A stretch of 64,000 bases of DNA, from assembly GCF_009389715.1 (NCBI RefSeq), contig NC_052397.1, positions 14,084,129-14,148,128 of the forward strand, in the 5' to 3' direction. Positions 18,061 through 52,526 of this stretch are shown one piece after another; position 1 is the first letter of the stretch; the number at the start of each line of letters is the position of its first letter. Source of the stretch: Phoenix dactylifera (lineage: Eukaryota > Streptophyta > Magnoliopsida > Arecales > Arecaceae). Below the pieces are notes generated by a model. The model worked only from the letters and a program-made list of their open reading frames with translations, did no database searches and was not told where the DNA came from. Position numbers and translations under genes: made by a program.

Positions 18061-19020
18061 CTGAACTTGGTCGTGAAGGAACCTGATATATCCCACGGCT
18101 TCGTCAAGAACAGAGGCCGTATCTGACTGCCTCCAGTCCAAAGCCAAACAGTTCCAGAAGGACACATGCACTGCTAATGAGTGAGATTCTAATATTCTCA
18201 TACGCACACACAGATAGCGAAAGAGGCTAAGAGAGAGAGACCTTGCCAAAGGGAGAGACCAGCTGCTGTAGTGCGCTGATACGCTCTCCTAGCTTCTCCT
18301 TCTTAACCTGATCATTCCTCTCCATCACAAGCCAACATGTAATTAATTAACACACAATATTAACGTTCTATATAAAATTTACAATAAAAATAACGACATG
18401 TATTATTAGATAAATATAGAAATTGTAAGACCCCTAAGAAGAGCTTACGTTGATCCTGCTCGGAGGACTCCTACATGCTGTCTTGGTCTTCTTGCTCGAG
18501 GTGGCGGTTCCTCTCCTTCCTCCTCCTCCACTAGCTGTCTTTTCTTTCTTCACAGTTTTATAAACAGCCATTAACCAATAATCCTCCCACCAAAAATAAA
18601 ACTAGAGAGAGAGAGAGAGAGAAGCATACCCTTGACCCCTTAGACTTGGTGCATTTGGTAGTGGAAGGAGAAGAGAGAGTGGATAATGAGGAACCACAGG
18701 TTATATAAGCAAGCTCATTTAGAAGGGGGTCCTCTTCAGCTCGACCAAAGCAAAGCATTCGGGGTACTTGTAGAACAAGTGGAGGAGGAGCAGGAGGAGG
18801 AGTTAGTGGCGGCGGCGGCGGCGGCGGCGCCAATGGATGAGAGAGAATAAGGTAGGCAGAGGACGAAGCCCTCCTTTGGTTTGACTACCTCATCCTTCTT
18901 TATCTTAGGAAGAGCACCATCCCCTGCTCCCAGTAGCTCCAAAAAACTCTTCCCTTTTAGTTGCTCCAAATCTTCCTCCTCATCTTCTTCCTCCTCCTCC
19001 TCATTCCTCCTCGACTCCAT
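17571..19020 (-). CDS. Atypical bHLH transcription factor (bHLH112/123-like), six exons
   Basis: A nuclear transcription factor with a helix-loop-helix dimerisation region. Predicted exons are 19020-18630, ~18547-18449, 18307-18242, 18126-18061, 17913-17863 and 17756-17571, all with GT donors and AG acceptors; exons 3-5 are in phase 0 (22, 22 and 17 codons). Exon 3 gives [20 protein letters not shown], exon 4 [20 protein letters not shown], exon 5 VLSSPYLQ and exon 6 [15 protein letters not shown], which is the known order of this clade. The basic region lacks the His-Glu-Arg E-box contacts, as is normal for it. ATG 19020 ([12 protein letters not shown]) opens an acidic N-terminus. A frame change in exon 1 near the GCC repeat (~18815) is needed to reach [12 protein letters not shown] and the exon end. 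The exon 1/2 acceptor is the least certain junction. Confidence 0.75.
18005..18054. repeat. (GA)n microsatellite in a bHLH intron
   Basis: About 24 GA units end six bases before the donor of exon 4. Shorter GA tracts occur in two other introns (17837-17850 and 18605-18622). Confidence 0.9.
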
Positions 19021-19303
19021 CCTATGATCGCCGGAGACAGCCAAAGAAAACAGCTTAGATGGTTGGAACACAGCAGGGTTCCAACCTAGAGCTCTCCTCT
19101 CTCTTAACCGTGGTTAGAGTAGAACGTTGATGGTCAGAAGGGTGGAAGTAATTAAAGCTCCCTCACTTCCAAAAAAGTAGACGGGATTGATTCCAGTCCT
19201 CCGTCTGTTCGGCTGATCGTTCTCATGGCATCGCCTCGTCTTTGATGGACGAATCGACGGTGGCGATGCGTTGCATGCGGCCGAGGGGACGCGGTTGGCT
19301 TTG
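19021..19303 (-). promoter_or_regulatory. Upstream region of the bHLH gene, cut by the Mutator-like insertion
   Basis: Only about 280 bp separate the bHLH start codon from the left TIR of the Mutator-like element. No clear TATA box is seen on the minus strand. The native promoter is therefore split, and its distal part now lies beyond 25799. Confidence 0.5.
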
Positions 19304-19365
19304 GGGTAGTTCTATATACACCCCCCCAATTGCTCAGGACACCCCCCAAAAACCAAAAAAAAATA
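19304..19365 (+). repeat. Left terminal inverted repeat of the MULE
   Basis: GGGTAGTTCTATATACACC followed by C-runs around AATTGCTCAGGACACC and an A-rich stretch. It matches the right end in inverse orientation with few differences. Confidence 0.85.
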
Positions 19366-19548
19366 CCCAAACTAACCTTTAGTGTAATTACCATATTGCC
19401 CTTGAGATTTTCTCATACACCCCCCTTCCTCCTCCTCCGTTTCGTTTTGAAAAGAAAAAAAAACCCCCCCTCAAACCCCCCTTAAACCCCTCGATTCATT
19501 TACATCGTTTAGGCGATCTTTGAAGGAGATTTAAGCCCCATTCGAAGC

Positions 19549-22500
19549 ATGGACAAGCAACTAGTGATTTGGAACGAAGAATCGGCCGCAAAGGTACGTG
19601 TTCCACCTTGTTTCGAAATTTTTTTTTTCACGGTTCGTGCTCCGTTCGGCACTGGATCGCCGAACAAAAGGCTTCTGTTCGGCTGAACAGTGCCGAACAG
19701 AAGCCTTCTGTTCGGCAACCCTCAACCCGAACAGAAGGGTTCTGTTCGGCTGCACGGTGCCGAATAGAAGCCTTCTGTTCGGCACTGTGCAGCCCGAACA
19801 GAAGGCTTCTGGTGCCAAATCGCGTGCCGTGCTGAATTTTGTGCCGAACAGATCCTCTGATTCATTAATTCTTGGTGATAAATTATTTTATATGTAGGGC
19901 TATGCTACAACCGAATCGAGTATAATTGGATCAGAATTTGTACTGGATTACACAAGCGAATTTACAACTTACGAGGTATTATAATGTATTGTGCAATTTT
20001 GTATTAGTTTAGCGAGCTATTTTTACAACTGTGTACTTACATAAATTGTTTAATGTATAGATCTTCAAGAGTAGAGAGGACTTGTGTAATTGGTGTCGTG
20101 AAGCTGGGAGACGAAATGGTTTTGTTGTTGTAATCAAATCATCTGATGCAGGTACCATTTCTAAGAAACCCAGAATTACGTTAGGTTGTGAGAGGGGTGG
20201 GACGTACCGAACCAAAAAGAAAAGCGAATAAAGACTGCATGTGGGACAAAGAAGTGTGGATGCCCTTTTGCATTAAGAGGAAAGAAATTGGATACTGCGG
20301 ATGATTGGATATTACTGGTCGTATGTGGAGTGCACAATCATCCCGCTGCAGAGAATCTGGAGGGGCACTCATATGCAGGGAGATTATCTGAGCAGGAGAC
20401 GGAATTGTTAGTAGATATGTCGAAGAGTTTGGTTCGTCCAAAGGACATATTATCCACATTGAAGGAAAGAGATGCCCTCAATGTTACGACTATCAAGACT
20501 ATCTACAATGTACGTCAACGGTTTAAGGTTGCAGAGAAAGCCGGGAGGTCTGAAATGCAACATCTATTAGGTAAATTATCAGAGGCTAAATATATTGAGT
20601 GGCATAGGAATTGTACTAATACGGATGTTGTGCATGACTTATTTTGGGCACACCCTGGCAGCATTGATTTGTTCCGTGCATTTCCCCGTGTGTTGATAAT
20701 GGATTGCACGTACAAGACGAATAGGTTTCGTCTTCCGCTCTTAGAGATTGTGGGGGTGACATCTACTGACATGACATTTTCAGTTGCTTTTGTATACTTA
20801 AATTCTGAGGGGGAAGAAAGCTATACTTGGGCATTAGAGAGATTGCGCAGTGTCATAGCTGATGATGTTTTGCCTGAGTTGATTGTTACAGATAGAGACT
20901 TGGCTTTGATGAATGCAATTCATAGAGTATTTCCTACTGCTAGACATTTATTATGTAGATGGCATATTAGTAGGAATGTTTTGGCCAAGTGCAAAAAATT
21001 TTTTCGAATTGAAGGAGAAATGGGATAAATTTATTATGAGTTGGAATGTACTAGTGCTGTCCTCCACGGAAGACGAGTATAATGATCGCTGGGAGTGCAC
21101 TGCAGAGAGAGTTCGGTACCTATCCAGATGCACTACAGTATGTGTCAGATACTTGGCTGAGCAAATACAAGGAAAGATTTGTTGCGGCGTGGACGGATAC
21201 ATGCAGGCACTACGGAAATGTGACGACAAATAGGTATCACAAATAAAGACTCACTTAATTTTAATTTGCCTCAGTTCTTATATCTAACTTTCATTTGTTT
21301 ACTAGGGTCGAGAGTGCACATGCAAAGCTCAAAAAGCAGCTTGGATCAAGCCAAGGAAGTTTCGAGTCATCTTGGACTAGAATACATGGATTGATTGAGT
21401 TGCAGCACAGCTCCGTTAAAGCCTCATTGGAGAAGAGTTTATTGGTAGTGCAGCACAACTTCAAGCCAGCTGAATTCAAAGAGTTGCGAGGTTTCATATC
21501 TATAAGTGCGTTAAATCATGTCCTCGCCCAATCGAAACGAGCCAATTCAGTTGGGTTTGATGATTCAAATTGTGGGTGCGCTATTCGACGCACACATGGT
21601 ATACCATGTGCTCACCAGATTGCGCGGTACAGGGTGGAAGGTCGGCCCATTCCTCTCGACTGCATAGATCCTCATTGGAGGAAACTTGATATTCTGCCTA
21701 CCCCCCCCCCCCGTGCAGCCAATTCAGTTGAGTTGTGATGCAGAGTTAGATTTGATTGCGCTACGATTCAAGAAGTTAGATGGGGCTTCTCAATTGCAGA
21801 TGATCAAGAAGTTACGAGAGATTGCAAGTCCAGATAGTACACCTCTTTTAGAGCCTGCAAAACGGAAGACCGGTTCACGTGGGCGCGCTTCAATGAAGGT
21901 TGATACGTCTACTCGACGTGACCCGTCTGCGTTTGAGTTGGTTCTATCTGGACAGGATAGTTATTCACCTGGTGTTGAGAAAGTTACCATCCGCAATCCA
22001 TCTACTCAGATTCAAAAGAGGCGGCCCAAGCAAAAGGTAAGTACCAAATATTTATTTCCTTACAATAGGTATCACAACGTCTACGGGACGGTCCGTGCCG
22101 TGCCGGTATGTCATGTGCCGATACGGGACATGTCGGGACGTGCCGTGCCGAGATGTGCCGATACGGGACATGTAGGGACGTGCCGTGCCGAGATGTGCCG
22201 ATACGGGATGTGCCGTGCCGAGATGTGCCGATACGGGATGTGCCGTGCCGAGATGTGCCGATACGGGACATGTTCTGCCATTGTTACATATTTTCTATCA
22301 TTTGATATTATTTGCAGGTTTTTCGTACTAGAGCCCAGTCACATACGCCCATTATCTATATTGATGCTATTCCTTCTGCCTTGAGACCATACATCCAGCA
22401 TATCAAGGATGTAAAAGCTGATGGGAATTGCGGATTTAGGGCAATAGCTGACTTACTGGGATTTGGAGAAGATGACTGGGTGCGTGTTAGGAAGGATTTA

Positions 22501-23061
22501 TTGCAAGAGTTGCAATGTCATTCGGACCACTATCGCACATTATATGGTGTGGAAGGGACGATTGCTGAGATCACTCATGCATTATCATATTATGATGATT
22601 GTCCACCATATGACAGATGGATGACTATGCCGGACATGGGTCATCTTATAGCATCCTGCTATAATGTTGTCCTATACCATCTCTCGTTGCAACAATGTCT
22701 GACCTTCCTACCTCTCCGTTCTGTGCCAGTACCTCTTCTATCCCGCAAAGATATCGCTATCGGATTCGTAAATGGAAATCATTTTGTTGAGGTACTACGT
22801 TCACAACACTTGCGAATATTTAATTTTGCTTATTTAATTTTGCTTATTTATAATTTTGTAGCTATTAATATTTTCTTATTTCTAATTTTGAAGGTGTTCT
22901 TGTTGCCGGGACATCCCGTTCCGCCAGTAGCGACCAACTGGCGAAAATATCATTTTCCTTGTGCTACTGGATGGGAAAATTCATATGAAGCACGGATTCA
23001 ACAGTTCAAAGAGAGCATCTCACCTAATGTTATAATTAGCGAGACAGTAGAGTTAGATTGA
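19549..23061 (+). CDS. MULE transposase fused to an OTU-family cysteine protease
   Basis: It catalyses cut-and-paste transposition; the C-terminal OTU fold belongs to a deubiquitinase-type cysteine protease family. Predicted exons are 19549-19593, 19898-19975, 20061-21233, 21306-22036, 22318-22791 and 22894-23061, all with GT..AG introns. A FAR1-like N-terminal zinc-binding region (NWCREAGRRNGF, then CGTKKCGCPF, then HNH) leads into the MULE domain. Visible there are the first Asp (MDCTYKTN), the second Asp (VTDRD), CRWH and the likely catalytic Glu in VESAHAKLK. A SWIM zinc finger follows (CGCAIRRTHGIPCAH). The OTU part shows DGNCGFRA with the nucleophile Cys and GNHFVEV with the His. Frame changes at ~20215, ~21000, ~21110 and in the C-run at ~21705 prevent a single open frame. 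All catalytic residues I looked for remain. Confidence 0.8.
19594..19897 (+). other. Transposase intron 1 carrying the left palindrome array
   Basis: The donor is AAG|GTACGTG and the acceptor TATGTAG|GG. Nearly the whole intron is the repeat array described separately, so splicing would remove it from the transposase message. Confidence 0.6.
19631..19851 (+). repeat. Left subterminal array of 33-bp palindromic repeats
   Basis: The core is a near-palindrome of TTCTGTTCGGC, a short spacer such as TGCACGGT, and GCCGAACAGAA, repeated about five times. The array is bordered by CTCCGTTCGGCACTGGATCG on the left and CAAATCGCGTGCCGTGCTGA on the right. The same borders in inverted order enclose the right array (24945-25290). 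Every unit can fold into a hairpin on either strand. Confidence 0.85.
22085..22270 (+). repeat. Tandem 30-42 bp repeat in a transposase intron
   Basis: The unit TGCCGTGCCGAGATGTGCCG followed by ATACGGGA occurs about four to five times. Some copies carry an extra CATGTCGGGACG. It fills most of the intron between the SWIM exon and the OTU exon (22037-22317). Its GTGCCG words resemble, but are not the same as, those of the subterminal arrays. Confidence 0.8.
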
Positions 23062-23279
23062 TTATTTATATATGTACAATTTTTGAAAGTTGTAAATTTT
23101 TTTGGGCTCTTAGAGTCATGTACTGTGAAACTCCATCATCAGCTGGGAATACATATGACGACTGTTGTTTCCGTTGAGATTTCAGATGTAAACAGAAACA
23201 TACTTAAGAGCTGGTGGGAGCAAACAAATCAAACAGGGGAACTAATAGACCTTTCTGATGTACAAGAACTTAACGGTGT

Positions 23280-24880
23280 GATACGGAGATACCACTCCAT
23301 GTATCCCGGTACGCTGTCTGGATGGCCGGGTAACTGGGTGGCTCCTGCTAGCCTGGCTCAGCACGTGGTCCTCCCACCGCTCCCAAAGCTGATCCATATA
23401 GGAGTAATGTATCCGGTACGAGCCTGCTGTGGAACCTCTGTTGGCTCGCGTAGGGGCTAGTGGCGCTCGAGGGATGGTCTGAATACGACCAAACTGTCTA
23501 AGAACCCTTTCTGGATGATAGGGTTCTACGATATCAAGGCACTTGATGGAGCCACTAAAAAATGCGACGGGTATATATGGGCGATCTCCCCGAAGCCGAT
23601 GATGGGGATCCCAAATAACCTGTAAAACAAAAGGTCCATTTCAGTTTTATACTATATCGCATATTAAAAGTACTGACAAACACAAGCAAATGGTAATATG
23701 ATACGTACCTCATCGATGCTCAAAAGGTCCAATGACTCACGTAGAACCACTAAATGGTCCATCGTGGTACGGGATGGAGTACCGGGCATCCAGCGGTGCA
23801 CGCGGGGACTGGCATCAGTATACTCGAGCGACGGGTGAGGACTGAGTGCTGGAATATGCTCATAAATCCATGCCTGCAGAAGCGTCATATAACCACTGAT
23901 CTGTCTCACTGATGACCTCGACGCAATCCCCAACTGCCGATACAAATATGCTAAGGCAGCTGTACCCCAGGCATATGTGCTCACCCTATCCAGATCCCGC
24001 AGTAAACACAAATACGCTATAGGCACCCTGGTCCCACTCTTATCAGCAAAGAGTGTGCAGCCTAACAAAAATAACAAATAGGCTCGTGCTGCACACTCTA
24101 TCCTCTGCTGCCTGTCTCTATCAGATACAGAGTGAAACTGAGTCCTCAGCCACTCCATCCTCACAGACTGACCGCGCGATGACAGTACCTCCTGACGCGC
24201 GTCTCCAGCTGACACCCCCAACAACTCCACAAGTAGCTCCTCAGCATCCCGATCACTCATCCTCTCAGGAGAAACTGATACTGAGGAACCTGCGACAGGA
24301 ATCCCTAAAATGGCGGATACATCATCCAACGTGATAGTGATCTCGCCAAATGGTATATGGAAGGTGTTCGTCTCGGGCTGCCATCTCTCTACGAAGCCCG
24401 AAATCAGAATCTTATCGATGAATCGATAAGAGCACTGTACTAACTCTACGAGGCCCGACTGCCTCAATAGTGCTCTGAACCTGGTATTTGGTTGGTTTGA
24501 AGACCACCACTTCCATTCACCAACCTTGGCAGTATGGTTCATGCACTTTAGTGGAGCTCGTTCCTGTAATATAAATGTATAATTACTACTATTTTATAAA
24601 ACATCAATAAACAAAATATAATGCTATAACAAATAAACAATACCTGTTGCCTCCAGATGGAAGCTGCTATATGCGTCCTGAAACTGATCAGGACGGACTC
24701 ATCCTCTGGACCTCCTGGACATGGTCCAACGGACTCATCGTCTTCGCCCCTAGCGGGCATATCATCATGCTCTGACTCAGGAGAGTCCGATGGCATATGA
24801 GCAGGCTCGGGAGAAGCAATCCTAGCACGACGTCTCCTAGCTGACGCCGTAGGTCTAACTCTGGCGGGACGGGGATCCAT
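23280..24880 (-). CDS. Plant mobile domain (PMD, MAIN/MAIL1-like) protein carried by the MULE
   Basis: PMD proteins occur both as host nuclear factors (MAIN, MAIL1 type) and as transposon-borne genes; their biochemical activity is not settled. Predicted exons are 24880-24644 (MDPRPARVRPTASARRRR, basic then acidic), 24563-23709 and 23619 to about 23280. Exon 2 carries the PMD signature: WKWWSSNQPNTRFRALLRQS, FVERWQPETNTFHIPFGEIT, TLDDVSAILGIPV, then YLLFLLGCTLFADKSG and WGTAALAYLYRQL. Exon 3 has PYHPERVLRQFG, YSYMDQLWERWEDHV and, one frame over, YMEWYLRIT. One frameshift near 23290 precedes a stop at 23229-23231. An acceptor-like TTTTCAG lies directly before the ATG, so a 5' non-coding exon beyond the right palindrome array is likely. 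It converges on the transposase gene. Confidence 0.8.
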
Positions 24881-24944
24881 GTCTGAAAATATAGAAATTC
24901 AATGTTAGGCTATATCAAAGAAAATAATTCAATTGCATACATAA

Positions 24945-25290
24945 ATGTTCGGCACAAAATTCAGCACGGCACGCGATTTGGCACCAGAAGCCTTCTGTTC
25001 GGCTGCACAGTGCCGAACAGAAGGCTTCTGTTCGGCTGCACAGAGCCGAACAGAAGGCTTCTGTTCGGCTGCACGGTGCCGAACAGAACCCTTTTGTTCG
25101 GCACTGTGCAGCCGAACAGAAGCCTTCTGTTCGGCACCGTGCAGCCGAACAGAAGCCTTCTGTTCGGCACCGTGCAGCCGAACAGAAGCCTTCTGTTCGG
25201 TTGAGGGTTGCCGAACAGAGGGCTTCTGTTCGGCACTGTTCAGCCGACAGAAGGGTTCTGTTCGGCGATCCAGTGCCGAACGGAGCACTG
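24945..25290 (-). repeat. Right subterminal array of 33-bp palindromic repeats
   Basis: An inverted copy of the left array with about ten units instead of five. It starts TTCGGCACAAAATTCAGCAC and ends GATCCAGTGCCGAACGGAG. It lies in the predicted 5' intron of the PMD gene, as the left array lies in transposase intron 1. A 21-base G run follows at 25296-25316. Confidence 0.85.
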
Positions 25291-25316
25291 GAGGCGGGGG
25301 GGGGGGGGGGGGGGGG

Positions 25317-25734
25317 AGCTACCTCGAGGTGGTCGTGGAGGCGCCGGCGAGGTGCTCGTTGCTCGGGAGATGGCCGGGGAGGTGGTTCCGGGAGAAGCCG
25401 GCGAGGTGGTCGGAGATCGGGAGAATGCCGGCGACGAGAGGGAGAAGGGGGAACGGGGGGGTTTTGGGCGTTGGCGAGGTGCACTGCACCGACCGGCGAC
25501 GAGAGGGAGAAGGGGGAGACGGAGGGGGTTTGGCCGCCGGCGAGGTTTTTTGGGCGGAAGGGTTACGGTGTTTTGGAGGGGAAGAGCGGGGTGGGGGGGG
25601 GGGGTTTGGGGGTGTAGAGAGCAATTTAGGTGAGGGGGTGGGGAGGGTGGGGGGTAATTTAGGTATTTTTAATTTTTTAGGGGTGTCCTTAGCAAATGGG
25701 GGGGGGGGGGGGGGGGGGGGGGTGTAGAGAGTAT
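25317..25734. other. GC-rich subterminal segment and inner TIR-like copy of the MULE
   Basis: GAGAGGGAGAAGGGGG-type words repeat twice (25435 and 25500), perhaps a 5' leader of the PMD gene. At 25680-25697 GGGTGTCCTTAGCAAATGGG mimics the inverted form of the TIR word GCTCAGGACACC, so an inner diverged TIR copy lies about 70 bp inside the true end. A 25-base G run follows. Confidence 0.5.
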
Positions 25735-25798
25735 TTAATTTTTTTTTAATTTTTGGGGGGTGTCCTGAGCAATAGGGGGGGTGTATATAGAACCACCC
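25735..25798 (-). repeat. Right terminal inverted repeat of the MULE
   Basis: Read on the minus strand: GGGTGGTTCTATATACACC, then a C run, ATTGCTCAGGACACC and an A/T-rich stretch, matching the left TIR. The 9-bp duplication TTGGCTTTG follows on the plus strand. Confidence 0.85.
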
Positions 25799-25807
25799 TT
25801 GGCTTTG

Positions 25808-27355
25808 GGATGCTCCTGGGGGTTCCATTACTTCGTGTCTGCTGTCCCGTCAATTCATTGATGTCTTGAAGCAAAGCCTAACGCACCAAAAGCGGGGAAA
25901 ACACAAGAAATATCCCTCGATCCTTTGAACTCACCGCAAGAAAATCTTATGCTGCATGAGAGACGATCTAATGTATGTAAGACCCGACCTTTCCCAAGAG
26001 ACAGAAACAGCATCGTAGGGGAATTAATGATACCTGGTTTGGCTGTGCTTCAATTCTTAACACACATAATTAGTATTTTATGTTTACTGCAATACATGAT
26101 TAGGCCAGTGTTTTTCCACAGAGTGGTGCTTTCTCTACATAATTAAATCTTTTTTTTATGTAATTGTATGTAATTATGTAGGTAATCAGGGAAGAAACAT
26201 AAAATGGTTATTCAAATTAGATGACAGGAATAAAATTTGTAGTCAACATGGATAGAATATTACATGCAGTAAATCTCAAGAAAGATATCAAATAAAAATG
26301 TGTACAGCTTATAGCTGTTAATGAATATCTAATTGCGTAGGTGCTGATTTATCGAGCAAGTTCTAATTGATATGGGATCGTATCTCGCCTCGACCTTAGC
26401 GGTATTTTGAGCTTAGCGGACGAAGGTCCTTCTACCAAAATGAATCCCATTAATCACATGAGATTTCACTGTGTAGCTATTTTCAGAGGTATGGATACAG
26501 GTATTTTCGGAGCACCACATGGAGGTACCATGTAGTTATTTTAAGTTGGTTGCCTGAAAATGCCTACGCAAACTTGTTTGTCAATAGACCATAGTCATTT
26601 ACAGGGGAGTAGGTTAATCAATTTTGACTAGGGCTACAATACTATAATTGGAGAAATTATACCCTACACTGCATGCGCCGACATCGCTATGCACCATGCC
26701 AATCACTGCTTCTCCTTGCTATAGGCCAATCATCGGGACGAGCGCATGATGAATAGGGCCCATAGAAGGAGATAGAGTAATTGGCATGGTGCATGGCCAT
26801 GTGGCGCACACAGTGTAGAATATATTTGCCCTAGAATTGCTTATCTAGGTGCATCCAAATGTGGTCCAGGTCAATCAAGTCTGAAACGATCGATTCTGTA
26901 TCCCCAAGTTCTATAAATTTCGTGCATGGCCATAAGAAAATGCAGCCCTGCGGAACTTGAAAACAATTGAACCTAGAATAGATCCACCATGAATGCTCAA
27001 AACTATATTGTCCCAAAGCCAACTACAACTTAAAACAGTTTCATTCTTTGTATCAAGATACATCAGCAACCCACATAACACATGAAGCATTTTGAGCTCT
27101 GGAAGTAGTCCTCAAAAATATCGGCAGAGCTTTTAATTCTTATAATTATTTTCAAATGCTTTACATAAAAAAAGAAGCATCTAGATTTTTTTTGTGATAA
27201 CATAAATATGCCCTCTCTTAAGAACATATATAAGCATAGAAGTGTCATGAATGTAAATTACAAATATTCTCATTGAGACTGAATAGTGCAGCATCAGATC
27301 ATTAAAATGCATTACGGTTGCCCTAAGCTGCTGTCAAGATTGCAAACAGATGAGG
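25808..27355. other. AT-rich spacer between the MULE and the membrane-protein gene
   Basis: It contains the continuation of the sequence interrupted by the MULE and the foldback element at 26628-26834. No coding region is recognised. Confidence 0.4.
26628..26834. mobile_element. Foldback MITE-like element
   Basis: The ends are CTAGGGC and GCCCTAG. Arms such as ATGCACCATGCCAAT with TCTCCTT pair with AGGAGA and ATTGGCATGGTGCAT on the other side, so almost the whole 207 bp is an imperfect palindrome. The outer words ATTATACCCTACACTG and CAGTGTAGAATATA relate it to 9070-9212. No target duplication is obvious. Confidence 0.6.
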
Positions 27356-34243: not shown

Positions 34244-34921
34244 TGTTACGGGGGAACTTAGCCACCATGCCCCACGTGACCGGCACGCGCGCCCAGGAAG
34301 ACTACGGCAGTCCCTTGATCCAGCAATCCGACCCCGAGTCGGATATCTTCGGCTCCGCAGCCCGACCCCGAGTCGGCTGCCCCCTGATCCAGTCATCCGA
34401 CCCCGAGTCGGCAATCTCCCGACAACGACAGGCTGTTCCCCTGAGGCACGCCGCGGCCCCCTGCTCCACTACTCCCTGCAACGGTCGCATCCGGCGCTGC
34501 TCCACGATCCCCTGTAACAGCCGTACAAAGCGGAGCCCCACTACGCCCTGTCATGGCCGTACCCAGCGCTGCCCCCACGACGCCCTGTAACGGCCATGCC
34601 AGTGGCAACTCCATCGTTGCCCCACGATGACGAACCCCCCTGAAAGACCCCCCAGCCTGGTATATATGCGGCTGGGGGGAGGAGGGGGGGAAGCGAGAAC
34701 TTCCAGAGCATTCTCTTACTTGCTACTATTATCTCTCCTTCTCCTCCAATCTCCTCTGACTTGATCGTCGGAGGGCCCCCACTACCCCAGTGGTGGTGCG
34801 AGGCTTGCTTGCAGGTTTCCCGGTGGAAGGTGGAGCGCAATCAACACCAACCAAGGCAACTCAAACGGAACCCCGTTCACACCGCTGTGCCAATCGTTCT
34901 CGGTTTGGACCACCAGCAACA
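34244..34921 (+). repeat. 5' LTR of the Tat-lineage element
   Basis: It begins TGTTACGGGGGAAC and ends CACCAGCAACA, followed by the PBS. A TATATAT box lies at 34661-34667. U3 holds three hairpin motifs CCGAC-cccga-GTCGG (34328, 34362, 34397) and about four copies of a ~42-bp unit around CCCTGTAACGGCC (34460-34600). Without the 3' LTR the start could be 34242 instead. Confidence 0.7.
34661..34667 (+). promoter_or_regulatory. TATA box of the Tat 5' LTR
   Basis: GGTATATATGCGG sits about 95 bp upstream of the TTGATCGTCGGAGGG block that marks the R/U5 side, a usual LTR arrangement. Confidence 0.5.
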
Positions 34922-34922
34922 G

Positions 34923-34940
34923 TTGGCGCTAGAGGAAGGG
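34923..34940 (+). promoter_or_regulatory. Primer-binding site of the Tat element
   Basis: TTGGCGCTAGAGGAAGGG follows the LTR end after one base. TGGCGCTAGA-type sites are typical of Tat-like gypsy elements. I have not identified the primer tRNA. Confidence 0.65.
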
Positions 34941-34961
34941 CCGAATCTCAGAGCGATCGTG

Positions 34962-36548
34962 ATGGCACGGCGAGGTGGTCGTGGAGCTTCCAATGCCTCC
35001 GGTCGCGGGGCCTCTCGCGCCTCCGGCCGGGAGGCCGCTGCGTCTCCAACACATTCTCAGCAACACTCCACCGCTCCACCTCCCATTCAGATGGTCGAAG
35101 CCGCTCAGTTCGACCAGTTAGCCCAGCAGGTTCGCACCCTCGCGGAGGCAGTGCAGAACCTGCAGGGTGTGATGTCTCGGGCGCCGCAGCGGGCCCAGGA
35201 GCCGCTGTTCCCTGAGCGCTCACCTGTCCTCCTCAACCCGCGCTCCTTCCTCTCCCATGGGGAGGAGCGCCGGCGCGAGGAAGATTCTCGAGCACGGTCC
35301 ATTCTGCCGGGACCTTCCCATCGGAGCTACGCGGGGTACGAGAGGCGGGCCCGGGCGCGTTCCCAGACCCCCCAGTCCTCAAGGAACCCGCGCTCCAGTC
35401 GGTCCCCCTCTCGGTGCTCCTTGTCTCCCACCCATCGGTCGCGCTCCCTGGACCGGCGGGTGGACGATCTCCACCGACAACTCCAGGTCCTGAAGGGCCA
35501 CTCCAAAGATCCCTTCGCCGACTTGGAGATCTCCTCCCAGCCGGCGCTTGCCTCGAGGATCCTGCGGACCCCGAATCCGCCGGGGTTTAAAATGCCGGCG
35601 ATCGAGCCCTATGACGGGGCGGCGGACCCGCGGGATCACGTCGAGAGTTTCAGGACCCTTATGCTCCTCCACGGAGCATCAGATCCTCTCCTCTGCAAGG
35701 CCTTTCCCGGCGACCCTCCGTGGCCCGGCAAGGGCGTGGTTCGCCGGCTTGGAGGCTAACTCAATCCAGTCCTTCGACCAGTTTACTCGCCTCTTCATCA
35801 CCCATTTCGCCGTCAGTAGCCGGCGGCGACTGGTCTCCGACTCCCTCTTTGATGTCCGGCAAAACGAGGGAGAAAGCTTGCGGGATTATCTTACCCGCTT
35901 CAACAAGGCTACGCTGGAAGTCCGGAACCTGAGCCAGGAGGTGGCTCTTTCAGCCCTGAAGCGTGGCTTCCGAAAGGGCAGACTCACCTTCTCCCTGGAC
36001 AAACGCCTGCCGCGGAGCTTCCCGGAGCTGTTGTCCCGGGCGAACCAGTATGCGGACGCCGAGGAGGCGGCCGCCCACCGGAGCAAGGAGGCCGCCGAGA
36101 TCCCTCCAAAGCTCGGAAAGAAAAGGCGAAAAGAGGCACGCCAGAGGAGGAGCCCGACGCCTCAACGTCGGCGCAGAAGCCTGTCGCCGGCGAGGAACCA
36201 CGGCGCCCTACGCCCTCGTTCTCCGCCCCGACGTTTCAACCGGTACACTCCTCTCCTGACTCCCCGGGCCCAGATCCTCATGGAAATCAAGGGGCGGGAG
36301 GACCTCCCGGGTCCCGAGACAGATGAAGGAAGATTCCTGGGAGGAGGCACTCTCGGGCGTACTGTGAGTACCACCGGGACCACGGCCACGACACCGAAGA
36401 CTGCTTCCAGCTTCGGGACGAGATCGAGGGCTCTCATCCGCCGAGGGCGTCTCGGTCGATATGTGAACGACCGACGTCCCCCCGCAGACCCGCGTCGGCC
36501 GACCCGGCCCCTCAGGAGCCTCGGGAGCGGAATCGACCCGTCGCGGGC
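34962..36548 (+). pseudogene. Tat element gag (capsid/nucleocapsid), frameshifted
   Basis: Gag forms the virus-like particle. The start ATG 34962 (MARRGGRGASNAS) opens a Ser/Arg-rich N-terminus. The retrotransposon gag domain runs from about MPAIEPYDGAADPRDHVESF (35591) through ARAWFAGLEANSIQSFDQFT, HFAVSSRRRLVSDSLF, GESLRDYLTRFN and SRANQYADAEEAA. A zinc-knuckle-like block, CEYHRDHGHDTEDC, lies at 36363-36404. Extra bases in C and G runs near 35709 and 36436 shift the frame. The residue pattern on either side is intact, so the breaks are recent or artefactual. Confidence 0.75.
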
Positions 36549-39388
36549 GTGATCCACACTATCACTGGGGGCTGCCCCCGGCCCGAGAGGAGCGCAGGGG
36601 GCTCGACTGAAGCGTCAGGGGCAGCCGTCGCAAAGAGGCAAAGGGTCGGTAATGTAATCACTTTTGTTGATGAAGATGTAAAGGGGGTTCAGACCCCCCA
36701 CGATGACGCCATGGTGATCTCCCTCACTATGGCAAACTATGATGTAAGGCGTTGTTCTTGTGGATAGTGGAAGCTCAGCTGATATTTTGTTTTACGAGGC
36801 CTTCCAAAAGATGAGCTTGTCCAGGACAATTGTTGCACCAAAACATCCACCCCCCTCATAGGATTCACTGGTGACGCTATCTCGGCCGAAGGTGTCGTTG
36901 AGCTGCCTGTGACTGCGGGCGTTGCACCCGCAGAAGCCACGGTGCGGCTCGGGTTCTTGATCGTCCGTATTCCCTCGGCCTACAACGCTATCCTCGGACG
37001 ACCCGGACTGAACGCCCTTCGCGCGGTGGTCTCTACGTACCACTTGCTCATGCGGTTCCCCACGGCGGCCGGGATTGGAGAGGTCCGAGGTGACCAACCG
37101 ACCGCAAGGCAATGTTTCCTAGCAACTCTCAAAGGGAAGAAGCCCGTAGAAGCCTTAAGCGTCGAGTCCCTCGACGCCAGAGACGAGGTGGCCTTGCGGC
37201 ACGGGGAGCCGGCCGAGGGTGTGATCGAAGTTCCCCTCGAGGAAGGTCGCCCGGACAGGACGATCCGGGTCGGCGCCAATCTCGACCCGGGAGCTCGGGC
37301 CCGGTTGGTGGAATTTCTCCGAGCCAATGTCGATGTGTTTGCCTGGTCGGCGGCCGATGTACCTGGGATCGACCCGGAGGTCATTTCTCACGCCCTCAAC
37401 GTCGACCCGACCCACCGACCGGTAAAACAGAAGAAGAGACACTGTGCCCCGGATCGGATCCGAGTGGTCGACCAGGAGGTAGACAAGCTCTTGGAGGCAG
37501 GATTCATAAGGGAGGTCAGCTACTCCGAATGGCTGGCAAATGTCGTACTTGTCCGGAAGGCGAGCGGAAAGTGGAGGGATGTGCGTCGACTACACCGACC
37601 TGAACAAGGCATGCCCCAAGGATAGCTTTCCGCTTCCGCGGATAGACCAACTGGGTCGACGCGACTTCCGAATATCAGCTGCTGTCTTTCATGGACGCCT
37701 TCTCCGGCTACAACCAGATAATGATGGCTCCACAGGACGAGGAGAAAACTTCCTTTATAACAGACCGGGGGCTGTACTGTTACAAGGTAATGCCCTTCGG
37801 TCTGAAGAATGCTGGCGCCACTTACCAGCGCCTCGTCAACAAAATCTTCAAAGAGCAAATCGGCCGGAACATGGAGGTGTACGTGGACGATATGCTGGTG
37901 AAGAGCCGCCATGCAGACCAGCACATCGCGGATCTGGAGGAGACTTTCGCCACCTTGCGGAAGTTTCGCATGAAGCTGAACCCAGCGAAGTGCGCCTTTG
38001 GCGCTTCGGCCGGGAGGTTCCTCGGTTTCATTGTCAACCAGCGGGGGATCGAAGCCAACCCGGACAAAATCAAGGCCATCCAAGATATGTCCCCTCCGAC
38101 CAAAGTGAAGGAGGTTCAGGAGCTCGCTGGGAGGGTCGCCGCGCTCGGACGATTTGTGGCAAAATCGGCCGAACGCTGCCAACCTTTCTTCAAGGTGTTG
38201 AAACGCCCGAAAGACTTCCTCTGGACGGCCGAATGTCAAGCAGCATTCGACCAGCTCAAGGAATACTTGGCGTCTCCTCCCCTGCTGTCCAAGCCGCAAG
38301 AAGGGGAGATGCTCTACCTCTATCTGGCGGTCTCCCCAACCGCAGTCAGTGCGGTACTGGTTCGGAAAGAGGCAAAGCTCCAGAAGCCTGTGTACTACAT
38401 CAGCCGGGTCCTACGGGATGCCGAGACGCGGTATACGAAGGCTGAAAAGATCGCCTTCGCGCTGCTGACCGCGACCAGGAGGCTTCGCCCCTATTTCCAG
38501 GCCCATTCTGTCACCTTCTTGACCGATCAACCGCTGCGGCAGATCCTCAGCAATCCTGAGAATGCGGGACGGCTGGTGAAGTGGGCAGTAGAACTTGGTG
38601 AGTTCGACATCCGCTACCAGCCCCGACCCGCCATCAAGGCCCAGGCGCTCGCGGATTTCCTCGCTGAGTGCACGGTGCAGGAGGCGGAACCTAGGTCGCC
38701 GGAAACACCCAGCCTCGACCTCCCGATTTGGACGCTTCACATCGATGGGTCGTCGAACCCCGAAGGTGGAGGGGCCGGGCTGGTCCTTACCAGTCCTGAT
38801 GGAGTAATAGCCGAGTATGCCTTGAGGTTCGGATTTCCAGTGACCAACAACGAGGCGGAGTACGAGGCCCTAGTCACGGGACTCAAACTCACCAAGAAGC
38901 TCGGCATCCGGCGCCTGAAGGTCTTCACCGACTCCCAGCTGGTGGTCGGGCAGGTCCGTGGGGAGTTCGAGGCCCGGAACCCGACCATGCAGAATTACGT
39001 CCGGAAGGTGCAAGCACTCATTCCCGACCTCGGCAGTGTCGACATCCAGCAGGTCCCAAGAAGTGAAAATGCCAGGGCCGACAGGTTGTCCCGCTTAGTG
39101 GGCGCAGACGCGCACAACTTGTCGAGGGCGATCTACCTGGAGACCCTGGATGCCTCGAGCATCGGCGAGGCTGGAGCGATGATGGCGATTGATCCGGAGC
39201 CGTCTTGGATGGACCCGCTTGTCGCCTACCTCGCCGAAGGGATCCTCCCTGAAGACGAAGATCAAGCTCGGCGACTTGTTATGAAGTCCGCCCACTACGT
39301 ACTCTATGAAGGGAGGCTGTATCGGACCTCGTTCACCGCCCCCCTCTTAAAGTGCCTCCGCCCCTCGGAAGCGGCCTACGTCCTTGGC
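36549..39388 (+). pseudogene. Tat element protease, reverse transcriptase, RNase H and archaeal RNase H
   Basis: The protease motif LVDSGSSADILF lies near 36757-36790 and NAILGRPGLNAL near 36985. RT follows with PVKQKKRHCAPDRIRVV, ASGKWR, CVDYTDLNKACPKDSFPLPR, MDAFSGYNQIMM and YVDDMLVKS (37880-37906, active site intact). The first RNase H runs to about 38660 (AVSAVLVRKE, YYISRVLRDAETRYTKAEK). The second RNase H spans about 38725-39115, with LHIDGSSNPEGGGAGLVL, NNEAEYEALVTGLKL and VFTDSQLVVGQVRGEF, a Tat-lineage hallmark. Extra bases near 36752, 37580 and 37653, and a further shift near 36850, break the frame. The chromovirus interrupts the polyprotein at 39394. Confidence 0.8.
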
Positions 39389-39393
39389 GAAGT
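39389..39393. repeat. Target duplication of the chromovirus, left copy
   Basis: GAAGT here and at 47718-47722, directly outside the TG...CA ends of the chromovirus. Confidence 0.9.
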
Positions 39394-39789
39394 TGATGGG
39401 GGCTCACGGTCCAAAGCCCCTCACCAAGCCTCTTTTCCTTGCGCTCCTCGCGTGCGCCTCCAAAATCCTTTGATGGTGGACCGATTGTAGGTAACGCCGG
39501 TGGATTAACTCAATGAAAGAGATCAACAATGAAGAAAACTTGATTTGTATTCCACTAACTTGAAGAACGAAGAACAATAGAAAAGAAAGCAAAGGAAATC
39601 TAGAAAGAGATTGAAGAGATCTCTTCCTAGCCCAATCTAGTGGAGATTGATGTATCTACCACTAGCCCAAGTCCTAGAACACAAGATCTAAGACCGAACT
39701 CGGCACAAACGCCGCCCAAGCCTTACGGCCGACATAACCATGACTCTCAAAAGAACTCTTGATGGCCTCCAATGGCCCCTTTACATCTC

Positions 39790-39797
39790 TTTTTATA
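39790..39797 (-). promoter_or_regulatory. TATA box of the chromovirus LTR
   Basis: TATAAAAA on the minus strand, preceded by CTTAGGG. The identical box is at 46656-46663 in the 5' LTR, where it would drive the element. Confidence 0.55.
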
Positions 39798-39806
39798 CCC
39801 TAAGCC

Positions 39807-42800
39807 CTAGACAAAACATGGCACTATGGATCCAAGGCTTCTCCTCCGTTGATTGGCATGATATGGATGGCTAAAGATCACCCAAGAAGGGCCCTCCCAC
39901 GGCTGAACTTTGGCTTGCTTCTTGGCCCTTGGATGGAGAGGGATGGAGGGTGGATATGCTTGAGTTCCGCGGACCGGACGCACGGGACGCGAGTCCCGGT
40001 TGACCGGGTCGCGCGTCCCGGCTGGGCGTGTCCCAGTCCGGGCGGGACTGGGACTGGGCGCGCGCCAGGCGGGCGGGCGCGCACGGGCGCGCGCGTGGGC
40101 GCTGGCGCACGGGCGGGCGCGGTCGGCTGGCGCTGGCGCACGGGCGGGCGCAGGCGGGCGGGCGCGGGCGCGCGGGCGGGCGCGCGGGCGGGCGCGGGCG
40201 CGCGGGCGGGCGCGCGGGCGGGCGCGGGCGCGCGGGCGGGCGCGCGGGCGGGCGCGCGGGCGGGCGCGCTGGCGGGCGCGCGGGCGGGCGCGGGCGCGCT
40301 GGCTGGCGCGCGGGCGGGCGCGGGCGGTCGGCCTGCTGGGCGCACGGGCGGGCAGGCGCGCGGGCGGGGCTGGGCGCGGGCCTGGGCGCGCGGGCGGGGC
40401 TGGGCGCGGGCCTGGGCGCGCGGGCGGGGCTGGGCACGGGCACTGTAGCACTGTAGCATGCGAGGTTCTTGGCCAAGAACCTCGCTGCACTGTAGCAATG
40501 GCAGGATTGGGCTGTGGCTTGGCTTCGGCGGGGCGGTGCGCGCGGCGGGTTCGGCCAAGGTTGGGCATGCTTGGCCATGGCTTGGGCATGCATGGGCACA
40601 TGTTTGGCTTGGCCGAGGTTGGGCGTGCTCGGCCGTATGAAGGTGGTTGGCCAAGGCTTTCCAAGCAAAGTAGTTGGCCTTGGCTTGACCCTCCGTTGGC
40701 CTCCTTGTGGTCCGATGGCCCTCTTTGGTTGGCATGGCTACTTTGGCCTTCAGTTGGTGTGCGACTGTTGCTCCTCTTGCGGCGTGGCTTGCGGGGGTCC
40801 TCAACATTCCTCCTCCCTTGAAGAACATCCTTGCCCTCAAGGATGAAGTTAGGGTACCTCTGAGAGACCTCGTCATAGTCCTCCCACGTAGCATCTTCCT
40901 TGGGCAAGCCGCCCCACTGAATCAAGACTTGCCAGATTTTGCGTCGTTCTCGGCCTCGTCTCCATATGCGGTACTTGAGAGCTTCAACTGGTTGTAGAAG
41001 TAGTCGACCCTCTTCGTTGAATATGGGAAGGTCTGGTGCAACTAATGTCGGGTCACCAACCTTCTCTTTGAGCAACGACACATGGAAGACTGGATGCAGA
41101 TGAGATGAGGCGGGTAACTCCAGTCGGTAGGCAACCTCTCCGATGCGTTCTATGATTCTGAACGGTCCATAAAATTTTTGAGATAGCTTGCGGCTGAACT
41201 TGTCTTTTAATGATTTCTGTTGGTAGGGCTTCAGCTTTAAGTAGACATACTGGCCAGGGTTGAAGACAACTTCTCGGCGACCTTGGTCATAGTACCTCTT
41301 CATTCTTTCTTGTGCCTTCTGAAGCTCTCTTTTTGCATTTGCTAGGACTTCGCCTCTTGTCATTAATTCTTGTTCAACTTCCTCACTTCGGGCCGTGCCT
41401 CTCTCATATGTAGTCAGTAGTGGAGGGGGCCTCCCATACACAAGTTCAAAAGGACTCAATTTAATGGATGAGTGGTAGGAAGTATTATACCAGAATTCAG
41501 CCCAGGGTATGAAAGCTTCCCATCGTGATTGTTGCTCATGGCAGAAGCAGCGCAAGTATTGCCCCAAGGTCCTGTTGACTATCTCTGTTTGTCCGTCCGT
41601 CTGCGGGTGGTAAGAGGAACTGGCTTTCAGTTTGCTTCCTTGCAAGGTGAACAGCTCCTTCCAGAAAGTACTCATGAAGACTCGATCTCGGTCGGTGACG
41701 ATGCTCCTTGGTACTCCATGGAGTCGAACAATGGTCTCCACGAATGCATGTGCAACTGACTTGGCTGTGTAAGGATGTTTAAGAGGTATGAAGTGTGCAT
41801 ACTTACTTAGCCGATCAACCACCACTAGGATCACTTCGTAGCCTTTGCTTGCTGGTAGACCCTCGATGAAGTCCATGGTCAGATCCTCCCATATCATGTT
41901 CGGAATGGGAAGTGGTTGCAGCAGTCCGGTGGGTGCCCGTGGATCATATTTGGTCTTCTGGCATGTCTCGCACTCGGCCACCAAGATTTTGACGTCGCGC
42001 TTCAATCCTTCCCAATAGAAAAAGTGCTTCACACGAAGATAGGTGCGAAGCCATCCTGAATGGCCACCTTCCTTGCTGTTGTGGAAGTGGTCTAAGATGT
42101 TTCTTCTCAAGTCGGGGACGTCGGGGACATAGATATTTCCCTTGTAAAAAATCAGACCATCACGCACCTTAAATTCTGCAACACCCGTAGCCGCTGCATC
42201 AAGTTTCTCTTGGATTTCTTGTGCTCGTGCGTCAAGCTTTGATGCTTCACGAACTCGGTCCCAAATCCTCCAATCAACGCCGCTGATTGCTGCAAAATTC
42301 TGCGGCTCATCCATGTCTTCAGCCACCCACAACATCTGGTCGTTCTCCCTTCGCGACAATGCGTCAGCCACTTTGTTTTCTTTGCCGGGTTGATAGATGA
42401 TGTCGTACTCGAATCCCAGCAACTTGACAAGAAATTTTTGCTGCTCGGGAGTCACTATCTTCTGTTGAAGTAGATGGCGGAGGGCTTGCTGGTCTGTGAT
42501 GATGGTGAAGCGCCGGCCGAGAAGGTATGGCCTCCAAATCTTCACCGCATGTACAACCGCCAACAATTCTCTTGCGTAGGTGCTCCAAGCCTTCTTTCTT
42601 GGCCCTAATGCTTTGGAAATAAAGGCCAAGGGTCGTCGTTCCTGCACCAAAACAGCACCTATACCTTCGCCACTAGCGTCGGTGTAGACCTCGAACGGTT
42701 TGGAAAAGTCGGGCAAGGCAAGTACCGGTGTTTGTGTCATAGCTTCCTTGAGGTCTTCAAATGCCTTGCGTGCTTGAATGGTCCACATGAAACCTCCTTT

Positions 42801-45635: not shown

Positions 45636-46259
45636 CTCCTTTTAACCCTCTGTTTTAGGACTCTAAATCCTTGAGACAACAGCCCCTCAAACTCCCAAAA
45701 ACCAAACCACTCAAGCCCCAAAGACTTGCTGCAGAAAATTTCTGGGCTGCAGAAAATTTCTGCGGCAGTCCACAAACTTCAGCAGCCAAGATCTCCCTCA
45801 AAACAGAACCAAATCAACACGTGGGGATGCCTATTACAGTGAATAATAAGCTCTGAAACTCTCCACCAAAACTCAAAATCAAAGCTTCAGAACCCTGTTC
45901 TTAACACCCAAAGCAAGCACCTAGTTGCAGAATTTTTCTGCAACAAAGGAACTTCACAAACCAGCCCCCAATCCTCCTGCGGTTGTCACCCAATGGATGA
46001 ACCAACCCACCTCACGTGTACACCACTCAATCAGCCTCCGACAGGGGTTTTACAATAATAAAAACAGAAATTAAACATCCCCCAATCGTATACAAATTCG
46101 AGCCAAATATAGGATGCAGAATTTTTATGAACTTCCCCAAAATCTATGATCTGAATTTTAACTTTAGATCAAACAGAATATGCAACGAAAATTCAGATCT
46201 GGAAGATTGGGATTCAAGCGTTACCTCCTTGAGAGGACCTCTCAATGAAAGCACCAAAT
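45636..46259 (-). other. Chromovirus 5' leader with primer-binding site
   Basis: About 620 bp lie between the 5' LTR and the gag ATG. Directly after the LTR the minus strand reads ATTTGGTGCTTTCATTGAG; TGGTGCTTTCATTGAGAG is the likely PBS. The primer tRNA is not one I recognise. A TTCTGCAG-rich direct repeat is present at 45730-45765. Confidence 0.65.
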
Positions 46260-47717
46260 TGATGGGGGCTCACGGTCCAAAGCCCCTCACCAAGCCTCTT
46301 TTCCTTGCGCTCCTCGCGTGCGCCTCCAAAATCCTTTGATGGTGGACCGATTGTAGGTAACGCCGGTGGATTAACTCAATGAAAGAGATCAACAATGAAG
46401 AAAACTTGATTTGTATTCCACTAACTTGAAGAACGAAGAACAATAGAAAAGAAAGCAAAGGAAATCTAGAAAGAGATTGAAGAGATCTCTTCCTAGCCCA
46501 ATCTAGTGGAGATTGATGTATCTACCACTAGCCCAAGTCCTAGAACACAAGATCTAAGACCGAACTCGGCACAAACGCCGCCCAAGCCTTACGGCCGACA
46601 TAACCATGACTCTCAAAAGAACTCTTGATGGCCTCCAATGGCCCCTTTACATCTCTTTTTATACCCTAAGCCCTAGACAAAACATGGCACTATGGATCCA
46701 AGGCTTCTCCTCCGTTGATTGGCATGATATGGATGGCTAAAGATCACCCAAGAAGGGCCCTCCCACGGCTGAACTTTGGCTTGCTTCTTGGCCCTTGGAT
46801 GGAGAGGGATGGAGGGTGGATATGCTTGAGTTCCGCGGACCGGACGCACGGGACGCGAGTCCCGGTTGACCGGGTCGCGCGTCCCGGCTGGGCGTGTCCC
46901 AGTCCGGGCGGGACTGGGACTGGGCGCGCGCCAGGCGGGCGGGCGCGCACGGGCGCGCGCGTGGGCGCTGGCGCACGGGCGGGCGCGGTCGGCTGGCGCT
47001 GGCGCACGGGCGGGCGCAGGCGGGCGGGCGCAGGCGCGCGGGCGGGCGCGCGGGCGGGCGCGGGCGCGCGGGCGGGCGCGCGGGCGGGCGCGGGCGCGCG
47101 GGCGGGCGCGGGCGCGCGGGCGGGCGCGCGGGCGGGCGCGCGGGCGGGCGCGCGGGCGGGCGCGCGGGCGGGCGCGGGCGCGCTGGCTGGCGCGCGGGCG
47201 GGCGCGGGCGGTCGGCCTGCTGGGCGCACGGGCGGGCAGGCGCGCGGGCGGGGCTGGGCGCGGGCCTGGGCGCGCGGGCGGGGCTGGGCGCGGGCCTGGG
47301 CGCGCGGGCGGGGCTGGGCGCGGGCCTGGGCGCGCAGGGGCCTGGGCACGGGCACTGTAGCACTGTAGCATGCGAGGTTCTTGCCAAGAACCTCGCTGCA
47401 CTGTAGCAATGGCAGGATTGGGCTGTGGCTTGGCTTCGGCGGGGCGGTGCGCGCGGCGGTTCGGCCAAGGTTGGGCATGCTTGGCCATGGCTTGGGCATG
47501 CATGGGCACATGTTTGGCTTGGCCGAGGTTTGGGCGTGCTCGGCCGTATGAAGGTGGTTGGCCAAGGCTTTCCAAGCAAAGTAGTTGGCCTTGGCTTGAC
47601 CCCCCGTTGGCCTCCTTGTGGTCCGATGGCCCTCTTTGGTTGGCATGGCTACTTTGGCCTTCAGTTGGTGTGCGACTGTTGCTCCTCTTGCGGCGTGGCT
47701 TGCGGGGGTCCTCAACA
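46260..47717 (-). repeat. 5' LTR of the chromovirus
   Basis: It is nearly identical to the other LTR outside the GC minisatellite (46890-47340). It is 45 bp longer, with extra GGGCGGGCGCG units and a changed tail (GCGCAGGGGCC). A TATA box lies at 46656-46663. Confidence 0.9.
46890..47340. repeat. GC minisatellite in the 5' LTR
   Basis: Same motif as 40025-40440 but with a different number and order of units. It accounts for most of the sequence difference between the two LTRs. Confidence 0.85.
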
Positions 47718-48709
47718 GAAGTCCACGAAGGCGTTTGCGGATCACACTTGGGGGCTAGGTCCTTGGCGCACAAGATCATGAGGCAAGGCTATTATTGGCC
47801 TACCTTGTTGGAGGACTCAAAGGATCATGTACGGAAATGCGACGCCTGCCAGCGCCACGCCAATGTCCAAAGAGTCCCTTCTGTCCCCTTGGCACTAATC
47901 ACTACACCCTGGCCCTTCGCCCAGTGGGGAATGGATATCCTCGGACCATTCCCCGTCGCTTCAGCTCAGCGGAAATTTTTGATTGTTGCAATCGACTACT
48001 TCACCAAGTGGGTGGAGGCAGAGCCGCTGGCCACTATCACGGAGGCGCAAGTCCGGAAGTTCGTGAAGAAGAACATCATTGTCCGATTTGGGGTACCTCG
48101 GGTCCTCATCTCGGATAATGGTCGACAGTTCGACAACAAGCATTTCCGTGACTTCTGCGAGGAGTTCGGGATCGAGCATCGGTTCACATCTGTGTCGCAT
48201 CCCCAAACCAACGGCGAGGCCGAGGTCACAAATCGGACAATCCTCCAAGGAATCAAAGCGCGAATCGGTCGGACGGGGCAAGCTTGGGTCGAAGAACTCG
48301 AGAATGTCCTTTGGGCGTATCGGACCACGCATCGGACCCCTACCGGGGAGACGCCTTTCAGCCTAACCTATGGCACGGAAGCCGTTGTCCTCGTGGAGCT
48401 CGGACTCCCCTCACCTCGGGTGGCCGCGCACCGACCCGCGGGGCCAATCGGAGCAACTCCGAGGGAAACCTGGATCTCTTGGAAGACAAGCGAGGGAAAT
48501 GGCGCAGCCGTCCCGGAGTGGGCGATGTACAGCGGAGGGGGGGCACCGACTATTACAAACTCCAAGGTCCGACCGAAAGCTGTTCAGAATCGGAAGATCT
48601 GGTGCTAAGGCGAGCTAAAGCATCTACAAACCTGCGGAGAGCGTGGGAAAGGCTAGCGGCCAAATGGGGAAGGGAACCGGCGATCTATAGGGTTCGTGGG
48701 TAAACCGAC
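47718..48709 (+). pseudogene. Tat element integrase (3' part of the interrupted gag-pol)
   Basis: The frame resumes at the target duplication. The HHCC zinc finger is whole on this side (HEGVCGSHLGARSLAH ... KCDACQRHA). The catalytic core shows D1 in GMDILGPFP, D2 in LISDNGRQF and E in NGEAEVTNRTI. WAYRTTHRTPTGETPFSLTYG follows, then PLGL-type LGLPSPR. After about 48420 several frame changes scatter the C-terminal part (NSKVRPKAV in one frame, EDLVLRRAKAS and LAAKWGREPAIYRV in another). The insertion of the chromovirus falls immediately before the zinc finger. Confidence 0.8.
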
Positions 48710-52440: not shown

Positions 52441-52526
52441 CAAGAGTCGGGAGTCAGCGAGACGCTACCAAGAGTTAAAAAGAAGAAGGACGAAAGTAAA
52501 ATGAAGAAACTCTATTTGCATTAACT

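Follow-up and report, generated by a model that had tools for sequence, protein, structure and literature searches.

Does a plant transposon carry a protein that shields it from silencing by its host? This question is raised by a Mutator-like element (MULE) in a 64,000-nt stretch of the Phoenix dactylifera genome (assembly GCF_009389715.1, contig NC_052397.1, positions 14,084,129 to 14,148,128; in the following called the window, with all positions counted from its first letter). The element encodes a MULE transposase joined to an OTU protease domain and, on the opposite strand, a plant mobile domain (PMD) protein. It is a real but broken two-gene MULE, and we regard the architecture described below as practically certain. 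The overall best reading, to which we assign a probability of about 55%, is that the PMD protein acts as a VANC-like, array-binding anti-silencing factor.

Structure and integrity of the element

The element extends from position 19304 to 25798, with terminal inverted repeats (TIRs) at its ends and copies of a target site duplication (TSD) directly outside both of them. The ends and the two genes are located as follows:

19295..19303, no strand: left TSD TTGGCTTTG, from the sequence
19304..19364, plus strand: left TIR, 61 bp, identical to the right end at 57/61 positions
19549..23061, plus strand: transposase-OTU gene, six exons (19549-19593, 19898-19975, 20061-21233, 21306-22036, 22318-22791, 22894-23061), from tblastn of relatives and splice sites
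23242..24880, minus strand: PMD gene, three exons (24880-24644, 24563-23709, 23619-23242), from PF10536, homologues, tblastn, splice sites and the VANC21 fold
25629..25704, minus strand: right terminal region, partial second copy, a 76% direct repeat versus 25706-25781
25738..25798, minus strand: right TIR, 61 bp, identical to the left end at 57/61 positions
25799..25807, no strand: right TSD TTGGCTTTG, from the sequence, both 9-bp copies matching perfectly

The MULE/DDE domain, the TIRs and the perfect 9-bp TSD assign the element to the Mutator superfamily. The original prediction, made from the sequence alone, had described an intact-ended element with matching TIRs and a perfect 9-bp TSD. 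These ends are indeed in place, but the genes between them are broken by five frame changes that it did not mention. Four lie within exons 3 and 4 of the transposase-OTU gene, where an alignment of five relatives showed homology running on uninterrupted on either side; all five relatives back the first three changes, and four of the five the last. The fifth lies near the C-terminus of the PMD protein, which carries on in another frame. The frame changes could reflect either a decayed copy or small assembly errors: one is located at a run of 12 C, but a neighbouring Gypsy open reading frame (ORF) of 1944 amino acids is open. Because of these changes, we rejected an intact autonomous element.

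BLAST revealed no second copy elsewhere in the window; the sole two outside matches belong to one C run near 14.5 kb. No Rfam family matched positions 19000-26200 at gathering scores, no tRNA was found, and the left 357 bp had no match in a plasmid collection.

The PMD protein has a predicted VANC fold

The convergent minus-strand PMD gene, already proposed in the original prediction, is confirmed by matches to PF10536 (E 2.7e-57 and 1.2e-8), a family also found in all 28 rows of the PMD alignment. The gene is nearly complete and has introns. Each protein search considered the best 120 of 488-506 matches; among these, the closest PMD match was P0121 (99% over 57%), from short contigs, and many relatives are annotated MAIN-LIKE.

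The predicted structure of the PMD protein matched VANC21 in its complex with DNA (9lnj) over the whole domain, and in this model the protein has a VANC fold. VANC21, from a VANDAL transposon, is an anti-silencing protein with sequence specificity; its crystal structure, then unpublished, was mentioned in a meeting report (PMC8756742). In the consulted part of PMC8616336, PMD is called a domain of unknown function, and we found no report of a link between PMD and VANC among the open-access papers listed by our searches. DUF1985 gave a sub-threshold match in PMD at E 0.0012, and was matched in 18/28 rows at E ≤ 0.1.

We consider the VANC21 match the most valuable result, making the anti-silencing hypothesis testable: it suggests a concrete function of PMD together with candidate binding sites, the arrays of the element, and it ties host silencing proteins to transposon counter-defence. 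A VANC-like DNA-binding role of the PMD protein appears rather likely. The earlier suggestion that protease and PMD aid transposition or counter silencing thereby gains support in its counter-silencing part.

Repeat arrays as candidate targets

The arrays in question lie in two mirrored blocks and one internal region:

19637..19850, plus strand: left inner inverted block with palindromic array 19659-19811, within the transposase gene's predicted intron 1
22082..22269, plus strand: third tandem array, periods of 15-40 bp, within the intron that precedes the OTU exons
24946..25288, minus strand: right inner inverted block, its palindromic array at 24985-25266, on the upstream side of the PMD gene

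The mirrored hairpin arrays of the original prediction are present. The inner blocks carry palindromes of 25 nt spaced 33-34 bp apart (with the pattern used, four were counted in the left block and seven in the right) and share a 57-nt stretch that is 100% identical between left and right, exceeding the identity of the outer TIRs. Between outer TIR and inner blocks, left-right similarity was not above that of 200 shuffles. As RNA, both blocks were predicted to fold more stably than shuffled sequences (z -12.8 left, -27.0 right). The third array is built on a different unit. All 11 tandem-repeat rows checked in the element, smaller ones included, lie outside exons.

From these observations the following mechanism can be proposed. 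A DDE transposase, probably of FAR1 type, would recognise the ends of the element and mobilise it, duplicating 9 bp of target sequence. The PMD protein would most likely bind the tandem arrays of its own element, in predicted intron 1, before the OTU exons and upstream of its own gene, and array-bound PMD would counter host silencing there; that these particular arrays are the targets is a tentative assignment. A broader possibility, likewise speculative, is that PMD and VANC belong to a single family of sequence-specific DNA-binding proteins borne by transposons, here in a widespread FAR1-type transposase-OTU MULE lineage in which PMD recognises the tandem palindromes of its element and lifts silencing; MAIN and MAIL1 would then be relatives of an anti-silencing family.

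Alternatively, the palindromic arrays could be transposase binding or folding sites, comparable to subterminal repeats or Foldback-like ends, with PMD acting elsewhere, for instance as a decoy of the MAIN/MAIL1 complex. The presence of arrays at both ends as an inverted pair, the identical stretch within them and their folding far beyond shuffles agree with this idea, as do the action of host MAIN/MAIL1 in silencing and the counter-silencing device proposed for transposon-borne PMD in the consulted parts of PMC5418596 and PMC8616336. However, the third, different array in the middle of the element is no place for a transposase site, and the VANC21 fold suggests that PMD contacts DNA directly. 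We regard this alternative as unlikely.

A further array was observed at positions 25-290 of the window, made of GCCGAGCTCAGAAGGCT-like units (five counted by pattern). By eye, this unit resembles the MULE terminal unit GCCGAACAGAAGGCT save for a 2-base gap, and the array may be one terminus of a related element truncated by the window boundary.

Association of transposase-OTU and PMD

One TIR pair and one TSD enclose both genes, as expected for the single element of the original prediction. Its further proposal of a distinct family was not borne out: because the transposase-OTU fusion is widespread and PMD has already been recorded in MULEs, the element represents a lineage and not one odd family.

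The original prediction had also named a later insertion of PMD with its own ends as a way to refute the association. Apart from the PMD gene lying on the opposite strand, nothing was found in favour of it. No inverted-repeat pair bracketing PMD alone was among the 25 listed of 82 pairs found, in a search that did not extend to a TSD flanking the gene. Antisense PMD is, moreover, recorded for several plant MULE groups, and the two proteins co-occur in Camellia sinensis. A later insertion appears very improbable.

The Camellia analysis used scaffold-level entries, with the length of the longest contig in a protein cluster, not a coordinate, serving as scaffold fingerprint. Transposase-OTU relatives were found on 51 scaffolds (28 from a first list and 23 from a second, obtained with P0043, itself among the first shared ones, as query) and PMD on 44. 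Six scaffolds were shared versus 1.18 expected (P 0.0014) for an assumed assembly size of 3.1 Gb; at 2.5 Gb, P was 0.004. The first list alone gave 3 shared of 28, with 0.64 expected (P 0.027), and within-family controls showed no excess (0 versus 0.68 expected; 1 versus 0.54). Before counting, the chromosome-level C. sinensis entries for the transposase (P0048, P0246, P0257, P0260, P0261, P0266) and for PMD (P0143, P0147, P0158, P0173, P0179, P0182, P0216) were excluded, as was every entry from another species.

Across the six scaffolds common to both proteins, transposase similarity predicted PMD similarity (r 0.89, 1/720 permutations). An alternative PMD on one scaffold changed this to 20/720 (Pearson) or 28/720 (Spearman), and dropping that scaffold gave 3/120; the exact P thus ranges from 0.001 to 0.04, depending on such choices. 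Scaffold sharing and similarity tracking together suggest that the two proteins probably travel together; because the entries carry no coordinates, co-travel is supported but not adjacency.

This correlation also bears on a possible passenger status of PMD, in which a MULE would have taken up a host gene by transduplication that has no role in transposition. In the consulted part of their paper, Ikeda et al. (PMC5418596) placed MULE-encoded PMD in the PMD-C clade and inferred two captures of genic PMD-C, while a counter-silencing role of MULE-borne PMD was only speculated upon; the many relatives annotated MAIN-LIKE agree with a capture. Correlated similarities in Camellia (also with the alternative PMD) and a nearly complete, intron-bearing gene convergent with the transposase nevertheless argue against a mere passenger, which we consider improbable.

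Several points weigh against PMD as an array-binding anti-silencing factor. The DUF1985 match (19.3 bits) falls under the curated cut-off of 35.1; DUF287, which is also drawn in VANC, was not found in the 28 PMD rows; and PDB sequence searches with PMD missed VANC21, giving no or unrelated weak matches (E 0.07, 0.6). A shared fold is no proof of function, and the host PMD proteins MAIN and MAIL1 have the opposite effect, being required for silencing according to the consulted parts of PMC7156037 and PMC5418596. The 7-mer common to both kinds of array is marginal against unit shuffles (P 0.07 dinucleotide, 0.02 mononucleotide); whole-array shuffles, a weaker control, gave 0/5000. Both genes are frame-changed, and this copy itself cannot show activity. 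The Camellia test, finally, rests on scaffolds without coordinates, and both OTU motifs were seen in just half of its six transposase models: P0043 and P0253 have the Cys motif without the His, and P0264 has neither.

The transposase-OTU gene and its relatives

The exon boundaries of the transposase-OTU gene follow homology and GT/AG splice signals; for exon 1, which is predicted, tblastn gave no match. The gene encodes these parts, all on the plus strand:

20061..20345: FAR1/AFT-type DNA-binding region (approximate), PF03101 E 2.2e-5, PF08731 E 2.5e-4, both from the read-through protein
20690..20977: MULE DDE transposase domain, PF10551 E 8e-27
21571..21615: SWIM-like motif CxC...CxH, from the sequence
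22318..22791: OTU core exon, Cys at 22429-22431 and His at 22780-22782

On the read-through protein, FAR1 scored 25.5 bits, under its cut-off of 28.1, and AFT 21.7 bits, just over its cut-off of 21.6; FAR1 was matched in 23 of the 30 alignment rows at E ≤ 0.1 (best 3.6e-7). The MuDR N-terminal DNA-binding domain, PF03108, was not found at E ≤ 0.1 in the 30 rows or the read-through protein. The plus-strand MULE transposase with SWIM and OTU domains that had been claimed earlier holds for the DDE domain and the OTU fold; its SWIM part is a SWIM-like CxC...CxH motif, a pattern of this type being seen in 17/29 relatives, and Pfam SWIM matched none of the 30 rows.

An OTU fold is present in the predicted structure model, and the catalytic Cys and His as well as an Asp three residues before the Cys are all found in the OTU part of the window. 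Cys and His are kept in 26/30 rows, with Ser for Cys in two, Gln for His in one and a gap in one. The Pfam OTU family gave no match, only otubain at E 0.026-0.035, while a profile of transposase-OTU relatives found OTUD5 in the PDB at E 0.00096. The predicted role is most likely deubiquitinating: the domain would release ubiquitin attached either to its own transposase or to chromatin at the element ends, which would make ubiquitin a possible second target.

The first 17 database matches covered 94-99% of the protein at 52-62% identity and came mostly from flowering plants; judged by such protein matches, the fusion has a wide distribution in plants. A large number of the relatives bear the annotation FAR1-RELATED SEQUENCE, as would be expected if transposase-OTU were a domesticated FAR1-like host gene and not mobile. 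With its TIRs, perfect 9-bp TSD and broken reading frame, this copy makes that explanation extremely improbable, although some relatives may be domesticated. Of the 120 listed relatives, 25 are named 'PKS-NRPS hybrid synthetase', apparently an annotation mistake passed on from record to record. We suggest that many plant genes under these two labels are kin of transposase-OTU. A viral contig collection scanned with the transposase-OTU alignment yielded 48 pattern matches and no relative.

Some gene models contain additional domains. In six from Rosaceae and Phlomoides (P0005-P0008, P0053, P0057), a SET/AWS histone-methyltransferase domain is joined to transposase-OTU, with SET near the N-terminus in 6/6, the D, D and E positions kept and a SWIM-like motif in 5/6; P0053 lacks the OTU motif. 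These models are fused elements, domesticated genes or annotation mergers. In the Actinidia models P0001 and P0003 an FHA domain is joined to transposase-OTU, and both have E at the second D position.

Comparison with known systems

In MuDR of maize, as here, a pair of genes is transcribed convergently, away from the TIRs, but its second gene mudrB is not known to be related to PMD, nor its transposase to be of FAR1 type. Table 1 of Dupeyron et al. 2019 (PMC6446971), as far as consulted, lists PMD, often antisense, for MUDR, MUDRAVI2, MDR, MULE-Monocots and MULE-Solanaceae_1. These groups resemble the present element, which has a SWIM-like motif, in a MULE transposase with SWIM or a related finger, a 9-bp TSD where given and, in most, TIRs, none being listed for MULE-Solanaceae_1. 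The main text of that paper has no occurrence of OTU, which is present here, and its consulted parts record FAR1 in TvMULE and in a Hop, a Jittery and a Phytophthora sub-group, never in one row with PMD, whereas the present element combines a putative FAR1-type region with PMD. We found no report of OTU in plant MULEs among the open-access papers listed by our searches. Antisense PMD in MULEs is already published; the transposase-OTU lineage with antisense PMD is, as far as we searched, undescribed.

VANDAL and KIU elements share with this one a second gene with a VANC fold, here predicted, and noncoding tandem repeats (consulted parts of PMC5735166, PMC10398659, PMC13317346). KIU, whose VANC is accompanied by Ulp1 (PMC13317346, in part), likewise brings a protease domain, but here the protease is OTU and fused to the transposase; an Ulp1 domain was not found in the PMD rows, the transposase rows or the read-through protein. 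VANC carries DUF287, which was not found in the PMD rows here, and the VANDAL row of PMC6446971 gives PMD and/or DUF in half of its members. TIRs make no clear difference from VANDAL, which the consulted part of PMC13317346 calls non-TIR and that of PMC6446971 lists with 46-174 bp.

OTU fused to a transposase is known from Ginger1 (PMC2836005, in part), and animal and fungal Helentrons (PMC6431247, in part) are similar in having OTU or Ulp1 on an element protein. Both differ in their unrelated transposase families and mainly animal or fungal hosts, and the consulted parts of these papers mention no PMD.

Other features of the window

At 34644-48608, a Gypsy-type polyprotein, recognised by eye from ORFs, is apparently interrupted by a second Gypsy element. 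The latter has the 1944-amino-acid ORF (39807-45641, minus strand), with reverse transcriptase, integrase and a weak chromodomain match. A direct repeat of 1464 bp (39390-40806 and 46256-47717, 96% identical) looks like its pair of long terminal repeats and contains a GC-rich minisatellite. Two adjoining tandem arrays, a 121-bp unit repeated 15.4 times and a 46-bp unit repeated 14.2 times, occupy 49950-52441, and a Copia-type polyprotein ORF of 941 amino acids lies at 57029-59854 on the minus strand.

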